Source: Thalassospiraceae bacterium LMO-JJ14 (lineage in GTDB: Bacteria; Pseudomonadota; Alphaproteobacteria; Rhodospirillales; Casp-alpha2). Taken from it: 64,000 nucleotides of DNA. Where the stretch lies: contig CP134604.1 of NCBI GenBank assembly GCA_021555105.2, positions 744,001 through 808,000 of the forward strand, written 5' to 3'. The position numbers and the translations under genes were made by a program. The first letter of the stretch is position 1; each line of letters begins with the position of its first letter. The notes below the pieces were generated by a model. It was given only the letters and a program-made list of their open reading frames with translations. It was not told the origin of the DNA and did no database searches. This document shows, one piece after another, positions 33,677 to 40,366 of the stretch.

Positions 33677-34549
33677 TTACACCGGCCGTTCGCCGATGCA
33701 GGTGGTGCGCTCCATGTAGCGGGGCTGATCGCCGTAATCCATGACCGCGTAGTGCATCAGGCAACGGTTATCCCATACAATGACGTCGTGCGCCTGCCAG
33801 GTGTGGCGATAAAGGTTCTCGGGGCGCGTTGCATGGCGGTACAGGGGGCCCAGAATCCAGCGGCTTTCATCGGCATCGAAACCGTCGAGATGCGAGGTGA
33901 AACCCGGATTGACGTAAAGGCTTTGCCTGCCGGTATCGGCATGGGTGCGGACCACCGGGTGCAACGCCTTGTTGGCGCCGGCCATGTCATTCTCGACGAC
34001 GATCGGTTTTGCGTACTGGGTCCGCGCCGCAACCTCGAAATCGTGCCAGGCGTGCAAGGGGCGCAGCATTTCTTTCATCGGTGCCGACAGGTCCTCGAAG
34101 GCCTTGGTCATGTTGGCGAAGATCGTGTCGCCGCCGATCTCCGGAATTTCGACGCCGTGCAAAACAGATGCGCCTGCCGGCGTTTCGCGGAAACTGACAT
34201 CGGAATGCCAATAGGTCCCGGCGCCCTTGCGGCCGAGTGGCTGTCCGGTGCCGTCGAGCTTGTTGGACACACGATAGATCTCCGGATGGTCAGGGTGAAT
34301 ATAACGGCTCACCGTATCTTGCAGCGGTGACTGGCCCGCTGCACCGAACAGCGGCCCAAAGGCCGCGCCGAAAGCGATATGTGCCTCGGTCGACAGATTC
34401 TTCTGTCCCCGGATCACCATCAGGCCACCATGCCCGCCCCATATACGTTTCAGGGCGCCGATGACGTTATCGCCGGGGCTGTCGTTCAGGTCGAGACCGG
34501 TAATCTCCGCCCCCAGATGTGTCGACAGGGGCCGTACATTGAAATCCAT
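33677..34549 (-). CDS. TauD/TfdA-family 2-oxoglutarate dioxygenase
   Basis: A 290-residue iron/2-oxoglutarate oxygenase. The HxD pair is His115/Asp117 in YWHSDVSFRE, the distal His lies in WDNRCLMHYAV, and the 2-oxoglutarate Arg is in RYMERTTCIGERP. Known family members release sulfite from taurine or open aryloxyalkanoates; nothing here fixes the substrate. Start ATG at 34549 has AGGAGGA upstream. It is divergent from the radical SAM gene (149 nt between). Confidence 0.88.
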   Translation of the reverse strand: MDFNVRPLSTHLGAEITGLDLNDSPGDNVIGALKRIWGGHGGLMVIRGQKNLSTEAHIAFGAAFGPLFGAAGQSPLQDTVSRYIHPDHPEIYRVSNKLDGTGQPLGRKGAGTYWHSDVSFRETPAGASVLHGVEIPEIGGDTIFANMTKAFEDLSAPMKEMLRPLHAWHDFEVAARTQYAKPIVVENDMAGANKALHPVVRTHADTGRQSLYVNPGFTSHLDGFDADESRWILGPLYRHATRPENLYRHTWQAHDVIVWDNRCLMHYAVMDYGDQPRYMERTTCIGERPV

Positions 34550-34698
34550 CGTGTGTGTCCTCCTGACGCCATTATGGAATTTCTGACGCCCCCTGCAATG
34601 CTTGTGCGCCGCGCCGCTCACGATAGGTTTATTTGAGTTGAGAACAGCACTCGGCTAAGCCATCCTTAGACGTCACCGACAGGAGCTTGCTCAGAACA

Positions 34699-35646
34699 AT
34701 GCCCGATTCCAGCCGTGCACTCGATCCGAAAAAATTTCTTGATCCGCTGATCACCGCCGACGGGCAGCAACGCGCGGTTGTCGCGCTAACTCACCTGACG
34801 ACGCTGTGGTTCAACACCGGATCTCTGTGCAACATCACGTGCGTCAATTGCTATATGGATTCGTCACCCAGGAACGACGCGCTGGCATACATCTCCCTGG
34901 CCGAAATGCGTGCCTATCTGGACGAAATCGCCGACGCACAAATGCAGGTCGAGGAAATCGCCTTTACCGGCGGCGAGCCGTTCATGAACCCGGATATCAT
35001 TCCAATGATCGGCGAGGCGTTGTCCAGGGGCTACAAGGTGCTGGTGCTGACCAATGCCATGAAACCGCTGCTAAACAAGCGTGATAAGCTGCTTGTGTTG
35101 AAACATACCCACGGCGACGCCCTGTCAATCCGAGTCTCGGTAGATCACTATACCCGCCAGGGACATGAAGAAATCCGCGGTAAGGATACCTGGCCGCCGA
35201 TGCTCGAAGGACTGCGCTGGCTGGCCGGGAACGGCTTCAACATGGCTGTGGCCGGGCGTACCTGCTGGGACGAGGGCGAGGAAGCCGGCCGCGCCGGGTA
35301 CGCACGTCTGTTCGCAAATGAAAACATTCCCGTCGATGCCGCAGACCGCGCCCGTCTGGTGTTGTTCCCGGAAATGGACACCGATGCCGATGTCCCCGAA
35401 ATCACCGTGCATTGTTGGGATATTTTGGGCATTCAACCCGAAAGCATGATGTGTGCTTCGTCGCGGATGGTCGTCAAACGGAAGGGAGCGGACAAGCCCG
35501 TTGTGATGCCCTGTACATTGCTGCCCTATGACGAAGCGTTCGAGTTGGGCAATGCACTCGGCGATTCCAACAAGGCCGTGCAGCTCAATCATCCCCACTG
35601 CGCCAAATTCTGTGTGCTGGGCGGTGCTTCATGCAGTCCGGATTGA
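34699..35646 (+). CDS. Radical SAM enzyme with Cys-rich C-terminus
   Basis: A 315-residue enzyme. The iron-sulfur triad is Cys44, Cys48 and Cys51 (LCNITCVNCYMD), and the SAM-binding FTGGEPFMNPD is near 89-99. Five more Cys near the C-terminus (252, 272, 301, 305, 312) could hold an auxiliary cluster, as in SPASM/twitch enzymes that modify peptides or proteins. No precursor peptide is seen next to it. The gene ends 7 nt before the phosphoesterase-like gene, so the two form an operon. The ATG is set by AGGAG 13 nt upstream. The reaction is unknown. Confidence 0.85.
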   Translation: MPDSSRALDPKKFLDPLITADGQQRAVVALTHLTTLWFNTGSLCNITCVNCYMDSSPRNDALAYISLAEMRAYLDEIADAQMQVEEIAFTGGEPFMNPDIIPMIGEALSRGYKVLVLTNAMKPLLNKRDKLLVLKHTHGDALSIRVSVDHYTRQGHEEIRGKDTWPPMLEGLRWLAGNGFNMAVAGRTCWDEGEEAGRAGYARLFANENIPVDAADRARLVLFPEMDTDADVPEITVHCWDILGIQPESMMCASSRMVVKRKGADKPVVMPCTLLPYDEAFELGNALGDSNKAVQLNHPHCAKFCVLGGASCSPD

Positions 35647-35653
35647 ACGGATC

Positions 35654-36529
35654 ATGATGTTTTCAGATACGGTTCGCGACCTTGGTGAATTGACCGGTCC
35701 CATCCTTGTGTTCGGCGGGCCGTATTCCAACCTGCAGGCGACGCAGGCAATGATCTGCGAAGCGGATCGCCTGGGGATCGCTCCGGAAAATATCATCTGT
35801 ACCGGGGACGTTGTCGCTTATGCAGCGGATCCGGCCGCCACCACGGATGCCATCATGGATTGGGGTATTGTCACGGTGATGGGCAACTGCGAGGAAAGCT
35901 TCGGCGCGGAAGCGGATGATTGCGGGTGTGGCTTCGAGGAAGGCACCGCCTGCGATGTCATGTCCCGGCAATGGTATGCCTATGCCAACGCCTGCCTGAC
36001 GCCTGAACATCGGGCCTGGATGCGGGAATTGCCGCGCAGGCTCGGCTTTACGCTCGGCGGACGCCGTTTTGCCGTGCTGCATGGCAGCGCGCAATCGATT
36101 AACGAGTTCGTTTTCGAAGCATCCGATGATGACGTGAAATATTCGGGGCTAGAAATGCTCGCTGTCGATGCTGTGATCGGCGGGCATTCCGGCGTGCCGT
36201 TTACGCAGTTAACCGGTGGTGGGCTTTGGCACAATGCCGGGGTCATCGGTATGCCGGCCAACGATGCGACACCCCGCGTGTGGTATTCGATTTTGCGCAC
36301 AACGGATCAGGGAATCGAGATCGAAATTTGTCCGCTCGAGTATGACCATGCCGCAGCTGCCCGTGCCATGCGCGACAGGAAACTGCCCGAGGGGTATGCG
36401 TCCTGTCTGGAGACGGGGCTTTGGCCGAACATGGACGTGATGCCCCAAGCCGAGCGCGCACGCGCCGGGCAACCGCTTGCCGCCGGGACGGTGTTGTGGC
36501 CCCGGCACGTCACCGCCGCCGCCGAGTAA
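35654..36529 (+). CDS. Metallophosphoesterase-fold protein with degraded motif I and Cys insert
   Basis: A 291-residue member of the calcineurin-like phosphoesterase superfamily (YfcE/ApaH side). TGDVVAYAADP, MGNCEESFG, LHGSAQSINEF and GGHSGVPFTQL match metal-binding motifs II-V. But motif I, normally SDIHGNL, reads GGPYSNL (residues 21-27), which removes the Asp and His ligands. A Cys-rich segment ADDCGCGFEEGTACD follows motif III. Catalysis may use a single metal or a bound cofactor, or may be lost. It is coupled to the radical SAM gene. Confidence 0.75.
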   Translation: MMFSDTVRDLGELTGPILVFGGPYSNLQATQAMICEADRLGIAPENIICTGDVVAYAADPAATTDAIMDWGIVTVMGNCEESFGAEADDCGCGFEEGTACDVMSRQWYAYANACLTPEHRAWMRELPRRLGFTLGGRRFAVLHGSAQSINEFVFEASDDDVKYSGLEMLAVDAVIGGHSGVPFTQLTGGGLWHNAGVIGMPANDATPRVWYSILRTTDQGIEIEICPLEYDHAAAARAMRDRKLPEGYASCLETGLWPNMDVMPQAERARAGQPLAAGTVLWPRHVTAAAE

Positions 36530-37645: not shown

Positions 37646-38053
37646 ATGAACGAGTTTCCGACCTTCGAACAGACCACCGACGGCATCCGCGTGCAGGTTG
37701 CCTCAGCCTATATCGACTCCCAGTCGGATCCCGACGAAAACCGCCATGTCTGGGCCTATCAGGTTCGGGTCGAAAACCTCGGCGAGGAAACGGTACAGCT
37801 TCTGACCCGCCGCTGGCGGATTACCGATGGGAACGGCCGCGCCCATGAGGTTATCGGCGACGGTGTTGTCGGTGAAAAACCGGTGCTGGAACCCGGGGAT
37901 CATTATGAATATTCCAGCGGCACCCCGTTGGCGACGTCGACCGGCTTCATGACCGGTATATTCCAGATGATTGATGCTTCGGGGCGGCGTTTTGCCGTGC
38001 AGGTGCCGGCATTCTCGCTCGACGGCCCGGAACCGCCGCGCGCCGTGCATTAA
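37646..38053 (+). CDS. apaG: ApaG protein
   Basis: The 135-residue product has the ApaG fold throughout: VASAYIDSQSDPDENRHVWA, YQVRVENLGEETVQLLTRRW, then the GEKPVLEPGDHYEYSSGTPL motif and GFMTGIFQM. ApaG proteins are associated with divalent cation resistance, and the domain recurs in F-box proteins; the molecular role is unsettled. The gene lies 76 nt before folE on the same strand. Confidence 0.93.
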   Translation: MNEFPTFEQTTDGIRVQVASAYIDSQSDPDENRHVWAYQVRVENLGEETVQLLTRRWRITDGNGRAHEVIGDGVVGEKPVLEPGDHYEYSSGTPLATSTGFMTGIFQMIDASGRRFAVQVPAFSLDGPEPPRAVH

Positions 38054-38129
38054 TCTGATCCATACGTTATATTTGCCCGTAATGAACAAGCATAACGAGG
38101 GCACCAGGTCAGAGAAGTTAGGATAAACC

Positions 38130-38798
38130 GTGACAGATCATAAACCGCTGAGCATGGCTTCCGCCAACACGCACAAGCATGTATCCCCGGAACTCGACAA
38201 GGGCCCCGATGTCGAGCGGCCGGCCCGCGAGGAAGCCGAAGCCGCTGTGCGCACGCTAATCCGCTGGGCCGGTGACGACCCCGAGCGTGAGGGACTCCTG
38301 GAAACCCCGGCCAGAGTGGTCCGCGCCTATGAAGAATTCTTCAACGGCTACGACGTCTGCCCGAGAAGCTATCTGGAAAAAACCTTCGAGGAAACCGAAG
38401 GCTACGACGAGATCGTTCTGCTGAAAGATATTCGTCTGGAAAGCCATTGCGAACATCACATGGTGCCGTTTATCGGCAAGGCGCATGTCGCCTATTTGCC
38501 GGACCGCCGTGTCGTCGGTATTTCCAAGCTGGCCCGTGTGGTCGAGGCCTATGGCAAAAGGCTGCAAATTCAGGAGAAGCTGACGGCGCAGATTGCCAAT
38601 ACGATCGATGAAGTGCTGGAGCCGCGCGGTGTGGCGGTTATCGTCGAAGCCGTGCACCAGTGCATGACCATGCGCGGCGTTCACAAACCGGGTGTGTCGC
38701 TGGTGACGAGTCGTATGCTCGGCGCGTTCCGTGACGATCCGGCAACCCGGCGCGAGTTCTTGTCCATGGTCAATCACGACGGCGGCAACTTCGCCTGA
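38130..38798 (+). CDS. folE: GTP cyclohydrolase I
   Basis: FolE converts GTP to dihydroneopterin triphosphate, the first step of folate synthesis. The 222-residue product has the zinc site in [20 protein letters not shown] (Cys and His) and a further Cys in HQCMTMRGV, with [19 protein letters not shown] between them. The N-terminal 40 residues are variable. Start is GTG, preceded by AGGATA 5 nt upstream. TrkH follows 122 nt downstream. Confidence 0.96.
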
Positions 38799-38920
38799 TA
38801 TTTTCCTTAGCAGCCAGTAAGGCATGCCATCAGTTGCCGCTGTCTGGGCTTGACCCGCTTCGCGCCGCGCGCTTTTGTATCTTGAGGGCCTGAAACAGGC
38901 GGACGGGGACCGGATTTTCA

Positions 38921-40366
38921 ATGGATTTTCGACCGGCAATCTTTATCGTCGGCTTGCTGCTGGCGACGCTTGCGGTTGTGATGTGCCTGCCGGCCATTGC
39001 CGATTTTGCCTATGGGCATCCCGATTGGCAGGTTTTTGCGATGGCGGCCAGTACCACGTTCTTCGTCGGCGTCACTATGGCGCTGACGTCGAAGGTCCGT
39101 GGTCTGAAACTGACCATCCGTCATGCATTCATGATTACCACGGCAAGCTGGGCGACGATGACGCTGTTTGCGGCGCTGCCGTTCGTGTTTTCCGAGTTGG
39201 ACATGAATTTTACCGATGCGCTGTTCGAGGCCATGTCCGGAATTACCACAACCGGGTCCACGGTGATTGTCGGGCTCGACAATGCACCTCCCGGCATCTT
39301 GTTGTGGCGTGCCCTGCTGCAGTGGCTCGGCGGGATCGGTATCATCGTCATGGGCATTGCCGTGCTGCCGTTGCTGCAGGTCGGCGGGATGCAGTTGTTC
39401 CGCATGGAAAGCTCGGATCAGTCCGACAAGGCGATGCCGCGCGCGGCACAGATTGCTTCAGCCATCGGTGTTATCTATTTCGGCCTGACCATGTTGTGGA
39501 CAGGTTTTTACTGGCTTGCCGGCATGGACGGTTTCGATGCCGTCGTGCATGCGATGACGACGATTGCCACGGGCGGGTTCTCTTCGCATGACGCTTCAAT
39601 CGCACATTTCGAATCCGCGACCATCGATTACATCGCCACCGCCGGGATGTTGGTTGGTGCCTTGCCGTTCATTTTGTATCTGCGCACGTTGCAGGGCAAT
39701 CTGATGGCCGTGGTCAACGACAGTCAGGTGCAGTGGTTCATTGTATTCGTTGCCTGCGTGATTGCGGCAATCACGGGATGGCTGGTTCTGGAAATCGGCG
39801 AGCAGCCGTTGGAAGCGCTTCGGCTCGCGGCCTTCAATATTGCTTCGATAATTACCGGCACCGGCTACGCCACTGACGATTATGGGCTGTGGGGATCATT
39901 CTCGCCGGTGATTTTCTTCTTCATCATGTTTATCGGCGGCTGTGCCGGGTCGACCACTTGCGGCATCAAGGTGTTCCGCTTTCAGGTCCTGTACGCCGCC
40001 GCCCGTACACAGATCCACCACCTTTTGCAGCCCCACGGTGTTTTTATCCCGTACTTCAACAAGCGGCCGATCTCGGAAGAGATCATCATCTCCGTGCTGT
40101 CGTTCTTTTTCATGTGGTTCTTTACCTTTGCCCTGCTGACACTGGGCTTGAGCTTGCTCGGCCTCGACTTCATGACGGCGTTTTCATCCGCGGCCACGTC
40201 GATCGCCAACGTCGGGCCGGCACTGGGACCGATTGCCGGGCCGGCCGGCAATTTCTCGACATTCCCGGATGCCGCCAAGTGGCTGATGTCGCTCGGTATG
40301 CTGTTGGGGCGGCTTGAGCTGTTTACCGTGATCGTTCTGTTCAGCCGCAGTTTCTGGCGGCCATAA
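38921..40366 (+). CDS. trkH: TrkH-type potassium uptake protein
   Basis: A 481-residue membrane channel subunit for K+ uptake. The four selectivity-filter loops are readable: SGITTTGST, TTIATGGFSS, IITGTGYAT and SIANVGPAL, each with the key Gly. About ten transmembrane segments and P-helices surround them. It needs a cytoplasmic TrkA/KtrA partner, which is not in this window. The ATG follows GGGGA 13 nt upstream. Confidence 0.94.
   Translation: MDFRPAIFIVGLLLATLAVVMCLPAIADFAYGHPDWQVFAMAASTTFFVGVTMALTSKVRGLKLTIRHAFMITTASWATMTLFAALPFVFSELDMNFTDALFEAMSGITTTGSTVIVGLDNAPPGILLWRALLQWLGGIGIIVMGIAVLPLLQVGGMQLFRMESSDQSDKAMPRAAQIASAIGVIYFGLTMLWTGFYWLAGMDGFDAVVHAMTTIATGGFSSHDASIAHFESATIDYIATAGMLVGALPFILYLRTLQGNLMAVVNDSQVQWFIVFVACVIAAITGWLVLEIGEQPLEALRLAAFNIASIITGTGYATDDYGLWGSFSPVIFFFIMFIGGCAGSTTCGIKVFRFQVLYAAARTQIHHLLQPHGVFIPYFNKRPISEEIIISVLSFFFMWFFTFALLTLGLSLLGLDFMTAFSSAATSIANVGPALGPIAGPAGNFSTFPDAAKWLMSLGMLLGRLELFTVIVLFSRSFWRP

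Follow-up and report, generated by a model that had tools for sequence, protein, structure and literature searches.

Why is a radical SAM enzyme encoded directly upstream of a phosphoesterase-fold protein that lacks ligands of one metal site and carries a cysteine-rich insert? This question is raised by two adjacent genes in the window, the whole stretch of 64,000 nucleotides that was analysed. The original prediction took them for a pair that may be an uncharacterised modification system. Our analysis supports a conserved unit of two genes, not characterised so far, whose products both contain invariant cysteines. A search of one literature collection returned no paper describing the pair.

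Organization of the locus

The two open reading frames lie on the same strand and are separated by 7 nt; the coordinates, strand and gap first assigned to them proved right. Their features are given below, the counts for the partner being taken from 58 aligned homologues and its residues being numbered from 35654.

34699-35646, + strand: radical SAM protein (P0001), 315 aa; PF04055, E 1.8e-15
34828-34851, + strand: CX3CX2C motif of P0001, Cys44, 48 and 51; present in 110/111 rows, the remaining row being a gap
35413-35634, + strand: C-terminal six-cysteine module of P0001, Cys239, 252, 272, 301, 305 and 312, ending HCxxxC...SC; 111/111 homologues
35654-36529, + strand: metallophosphoesterase-fold partner (P0002), 291 aa; PF12850, E 2.7e-9
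35714-35734, + strand: altered motif I, GGPYSNL; G22 57/58, Y24 55/58, N26 58/58; the Asp and His ligands are replaced by Gly22 and Tyr24
35804-35809, + strand: motif II, GD; Asp52, bridging/site-2 ligand, kept in 58/58
35882-35896, + strand: motif III, GNCEE; Asn78 58/58, Cys79 54/58
35915-35953, + strand: cysteine-rich insert, DDCGCGF...C; Cys90, Cys92 and Cys100, each 58/58
36080-36085, + strand: motif IV, HG; His143, site-2 ligand, kept in 58/58
36182-36193, + strand: motif V, GHSG; His178 (site 2) 58/58; the second His (site 1) is replaced by Gly180, 58/58

Neither protein scores above any NCBIfam cut-off, and in the named record (Roseomonas) both carry generic names only. A divergent gene for a TauD/TfdA-family dioxygenase (33677-34621, minus strand) lies upstream and is kept alongside the pair in close relatives. 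Genes for an OmpA-family protein, ApaG and GTP cyclohydrolase I are found downstream, the ApaG, FolE and TrkH-like genes lying at 37649-40366. The apaG/folE/trkH order recurs beside the radical SAM gene in many genomes of the order, even those without the partner. A functional tie to the apaG/folE/trkH/metZ genes beside the radical SAM gene was considered and dropped as a main clue, as the arrangement looks like inherited order-level synteny.

The radical SAM protein

Judged from its sequence, P0001 is a member of an unnamed radical SAM family, distant from both ArsS and Rv1681: it reaches 81 bits against NF049973 (the Rv1681 family; cut-off 380) and 59 bits against TIGR04167/ArsS (cut-off 300). 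The CX3CX2C and GGE motifs expected of the superfamily are present in the PF04055 region. The cysteines of the CX3CX2C motif would hold the 4Fe-4S cluster that cleaves SAM. Five extra cysteines had been noted in the C-terminal part of the protein; these are real, but six rather than five are conserved, and all six, like the three core cysteines, are also kept in an outgroup at 31-38% identity. Besides the core and C-terminal cysteines, Cys189 is variable. With regard to a SPASM/twitch domain holding auxiliary 4Fe-4S clusters, the six invariant cysteines are seen, and the predicted structure of P0001 (pLDDT 67) is too poor to place them. In a quick tree of the radical SAM proteins, the partner-linked members are spread over several clades.

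The partner protein

The AlphaFold2 model of P0002 has a pLDDT of 90, and its nearest folds are those of SapH (3qfm/3qfn), 1nnw, 2gju and 3rqz, with Z about 26, followed by rows at Z 16. Both the Pfam match and the fold search thus place P0002 in the metallophosphoesterase fold (PF12850/PF00149). A phmmer comparison with PDB sequences gave no direct match; by profile, P0002 matches 3rqz with an E value of 7e-11. The GGPYSNL of the partner, found where SDIHGNL had been expected, aligns to ISDVHANL of 3rqz, whose own motifs are ordinary (SDVHANL and GHTHVP). This replacement and the DDCGCGF insert after motif III are both as first described. The four other phosphoesterase motifs had also been considered intact, which holds for the site-2 ligands but not for the fifth motif, where GHxH has become GHSG.

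The assignment of motif residues to metal sites 1 and 2 is established for the calcineurin-like phosphoesterase family. All three ligands that serve site 1 only are replaced, so that the ligand set of a dinuclear metallophosphoesterase is incomplete, and all four site-2 ligands (D52, N78, H143 and H178) are invariant (58/58). Among the remaining cysteines, Cys49 is present in 55/58 homologues. Relatives of the partner in another class, at 20-22% identity, keep GGxYxN, the site-2 ligands and CGC (Cys90 and Cys92). The metal-ligand loss and cysteine gain had been taken to suggest an iron-sulfur cluster. The loss of the site-1 ligands and the gain of cysteines stand, but the cluster reading is weakened, with only three cysteines invariant and two of them kept in the distant relatives. 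A four-cysteine Fe-S site common to all partner relatives was likewise weakened as a candidate, because Cys49 and Cys79 are not constant and just Cys90/92 are left in the distant relatives. The invariance of cysteines among homologues, on which the earlier proposal depended, was confirmed for six positions in the radical SAM protein and three in the partner. Because of the conservation levels of motifs and cysteines in both families, chance or an oddity of one genome can be excluded.

Distribution and linkage of the two genes

In an order-level sample of 100 genomes, the radical SAM gene was found in 75, the partner in 45 and both in 44. The two genes are adjacent and on one strand in 37 of these 44, mostly less than 70 nt apart; the pair is therefore conserved beyond this genome, as the original prediction had required. 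Across a class sample of 289 alphaproteobacterial genomes, 83 carry the radical SAM gene and 20 the partner, with 17 shared (p 9e-8, uncorrected for kinship; as the sampled genomes are kin, the co-occurrence p-values are too small). The genes are adjacent or fused in 9 of these 17. No partner accompanies the radical SAM gene in 66 of its 83 genomes, and only 3 of the 20 partner genomes have no P0001-type radical SAM gene: G113 and G245, which are both ArsS genomes, and G151, which is 87% complete. Incompleteness of metagenome-assembled genomes affects such absences. The dependence is one-way, the partner being found mostly only where the radical SAM gene or ArsS is present, and strict co-loss of the two genes, which had been suggested as a check, was not seen.

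In one genome (G193), the partner and the radical SAM protein form the N-terminal and C-terminal parts, respectively, of a single 717-aa open reading frame (L137:5657-7810, minus strand), which is the reverse of the usual tandem order. This fusion belongs to a gene run that also holds MerA-like, TVP38 and symporter genes; the same genome has a second radical SAM gene by TIGR04282/TIGR04283 genes. No such fusion was found in the other genomes of a small sample around G193. A complete, streamlined 1.2-Mb genome (G196) keeps both genes unlinked (L135:7354-8181 and L136:7263-8171, both on the minus strand); its radical SAM gene lies in a run with genes named from sequence as metZ-like, metE-like, methylenetetrahydrofolate reductase-like and TVP38-like.

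Gene neighbourhoods and arsenosugar-type genes

On plasmid p546-1 of Roseomonas haemaphysalidis, an operon comprises TIGR04282, DUF547, a second radical SAM protein, the P0001-type radical SAM protein, a PhnD/E/C-like importer and the partner. Alongside it are genes for MauE/DoxX, DUF547, FAD oxidoreductases, a VTT (TVP38) protein and a GT2, which reaches 165 bits against TIGR04283 (cut-off 182). The second radical SAM protein (L197:13592-14971, 459 aa) directly precedes the P0001-type protein and gives weak matches to TrsS and the tetraether lipid synthase Tes.

Where the partner is unlinked to the radical SAM gene, it often adjoins a Na+/solute symporter gene. Such a symporter lies at or near the partner in L079, L081, L085, L137, L149, L200 and L201; the genes overlap by 4 bp in L085 and L201, which belong to two classes. 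The order TVP38-MerA, radical SAM, symporter, partner-like gene was observed in another class. Divergent radical SAM members also keep company with ArsM-like genes: one (L198) follows TIGR04282 and TIGR04283 and has an ArsM-like gene and TVP38-MerA as its immediate neighbours, and another (L199) is flanked by MTAP on one side and by an ArsM-like gene plus TIGR04282 on the other.

TIGR04283, whose "arsenosugar" name, like that of TIGR04282, is a curated inference of NCBI, scores over its cut-off in 72 of the 83 radical SAM genomes and in 20 of the 206 others (Fisher p 3e-37, uncorrected for kinship). It lies within 10 kb of the radical SAM gene in 10 genomes, with 0.45 expected. ArsM (E up to 1e-30) was found in 25 genomes, 21 of which have the P0001-type radical SAM gene, and in just 3 of the 20 partner-bearing genomes. 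True ArsS exceeds its cut-off in only 2 of the 289 genomes (G113 and G245). Neither has P0001, and in each of them the neighbours of the partner are ArsS, MTAP, a TIGR04283-like glycosyltransferase and a TVP38-MerA-like fusion. The arsenosugar gene company is thus found around relatives of the pair, and the genome of the window has TIGR04282 and TIGR04283 only, together and elsewhere on the chromosome, 67 kb from the pair. A search of this genome for a recognisable ArsM found none, the best match being 27 bits.

Proposed function and alternative explanations

We see an even chance that the two genes form the core of an alternative, ArsS-like arsenosugar-type pathway module with a thiolate-reworked phosphoesterase. 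Arsenic would then be the element, and the steps, in the order that we infer, would be as follows. P0001 would take the place of ArsS and cleave SAM at its core cluster, giving a 5'-deoxyadenosyl radical. In an adenosyl transfer, this radical could join a trivalent (methyl)arsenical held at the C-terminal cysteine region of P0001 to form 5'-deoxy-5'-arsino-adenosine, which MTAP-like and TIGR04282/TIGR04283 enzymes could convert to glycosides or lipids. The partner would have one metal site left (D52, N78, H143 and H178), with the invariant CxC...C thiolate set replacing the lost site-1 ligands. Next to the metal that remains, it may bind a trivalent arsenical or a metal with thiolate ligands, and it could either deliver substrate to the radical enzyme or cleave an arseno-sugar phosphate ester. 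Trivalent arsenic favours three-thiolate sites, as in ArsM/ArsR-type sites; as three thiolates have been gained, a partner that binds arsenicals or cleaves arseno-phosphoesters is favoured. The module reading draws on the observed conservation, adjacency, fusion, operon company and co-occurrence with TIGR04283, on the position of the partner next to true ArsS, and on the resemblance of P0001 to ArsS and of its surroundings to known ArsS clusters. Against it count the missing ArsM in the genome of the window and in most partner genomes, the 67 kb between the pair and TIGR04282/TIGR04283, the inferred naming of these two families, and the lack of a DUF3641 match in P0001.

The lack of a recognisable ArsM in the genome of the window could mean that methylated arsenicals are imported, that a methyltransferase has escaped recognition or that the element is a different one. 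Import is central to a catabolic alternative that we judge unlikely, though well worth considering, in which an imported organophosphorus or organoarsenical compound, e.g. an arsenosugar phosphodiester, would be processed by the partner with its adjacent importer and broken or remodelled by the radical SAM enzyme. The symporter genes adjoining the partner in several genomes where it is unlinked to the radical SAM gene, with 4-bp overlaps in two classes, are consistent with such salvage, as is its operon with PhnDEC-like genes in Roseomonas. Most partner genomes are without ArsM, which fits import better than synthesis from arsenite. However, the strong co-occurrence of the TIGR04282/TIGR04283 glycosyltransferases with the radical SAM gene points to synthesis. 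An analogous radical pathway that acts on phosphorus, selenium or some other element instead of arsenic and reuses arsenosugar-type glycosyltransferases appears improbable. The missing ArsM in the genome of the window and the PhnDEC-like importer of the Roseomonas operon would agree with it, but divergent radical SAM members share operons with ArsM-like genes, ArsM shows an enrichment in genomes with P0001 (21/25), and true ArsS has the partner at its side in two genomes.

The original prediction also offered the partner as an Fe-S protein, or as a protein substrate of the radical enzyme within a modification system. Invariant cysteines in both proteins, tight linkage and a natural fusion agree with this idea, which we nevertheless consider improbable: the radical SAM gene does without the partner in 66/83 genomes, just three partner cysteines are invariant, and the relatives sit among genes for small-molecule enzymes (ArsM-like, MTAP and TIGR04282/TIGR04283) and transporters.

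Returning to the arsenosugar-type module, the pair may tentatively be viewed as part of a second, independent radical SAM family forming carbon-metalloid bonds, widespread in Alphaproteobacteria, with a phosphoesterase fold whose O/N metal site became a thiolate site handling trivalent arsenic. Arsenosugars and arsenolipids are major organic forms of arsenic in marine life, and what is known of the bacterial genes for them comes mostly from ArsM/ArsS. Should the assignment hold, this route would be far commoner than annotation shows (ArsS in 2/289 and P0001-type radical SAM in 83/289 alphaproteobacterial genomes), and the partner would offer a rare instance of cysteines taking over one metal site in a phosphoesterase fold.

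Comparison with known systems

ArsS is reported to adenosylate arsenic in oxo-arsenosugar biosynthesis (PMC12159101), and another radical SAM enzyme, ArsL, to make arsinothricin (PMC8552651). P0001 is homologous to ArsS over the radical SAM core (hhalign 98.7%), and the two share the C-terminal pattern MC...C...HCxxC...SC, which 0/200 column shuffles matched as well. The last five of the six C-terminal cysteines of P0001 have counterparts in ArsS, whereas Cys239 is an extra invariant cysteine of P0001. The relatives of P0001 have the same neighbours as ArsS (ArsM, MTAP, TIGR04282/TIGR04283, TVP38 and MerA-like genes). Of the ArsS clusters fetched for comparison, that of Pseudanabaena contains TVP38, mercuric reductase and ArsM, and that of Acinetobacter a TVP38/FAD fusion, DUF547, TIGR04283 and TIGR04282. 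In contrast, a homologue of P0001 (L170) scores 50 bits against TIGR04167, which, like the 59 bits of P0001 itself, is far from the 300 needed. DUF3641 (PF12345) matches the ArsS control at 184 bits and no P0001-type protein at E up to 10, and ArsS and P0001 never occur together among the 289 genomes. Because of its gene company we propose that P0001 may work like ArsS, and because the score and domain comparisons failed we do not file it as ArsS.

The Rv1681 family (NF049973) is the best NCBIfam match for the P0001-type core, at 81-109 bits, but these scores are far under the cut-off of 380 and the name of the model carries no function. The partner shares the whole fold and the site-2 ligands with SapH/Spr1479, an asymmetric Ap4A hydrolase and phosphodiesterase (3qfm), and with 3rqz, 1nnw and 2gju, but differs from them in being without the three site-1 ligands and in having the invariant CxC...C insert. 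VPS29, whose phosphoesterase fold was found by Foldseek, has degenerate catalysis and sets an example of this fold in a non-canonical role; unlike VPS29, the partner is bacterial, cysteine-rich and paired with a radical SAM enzyme.
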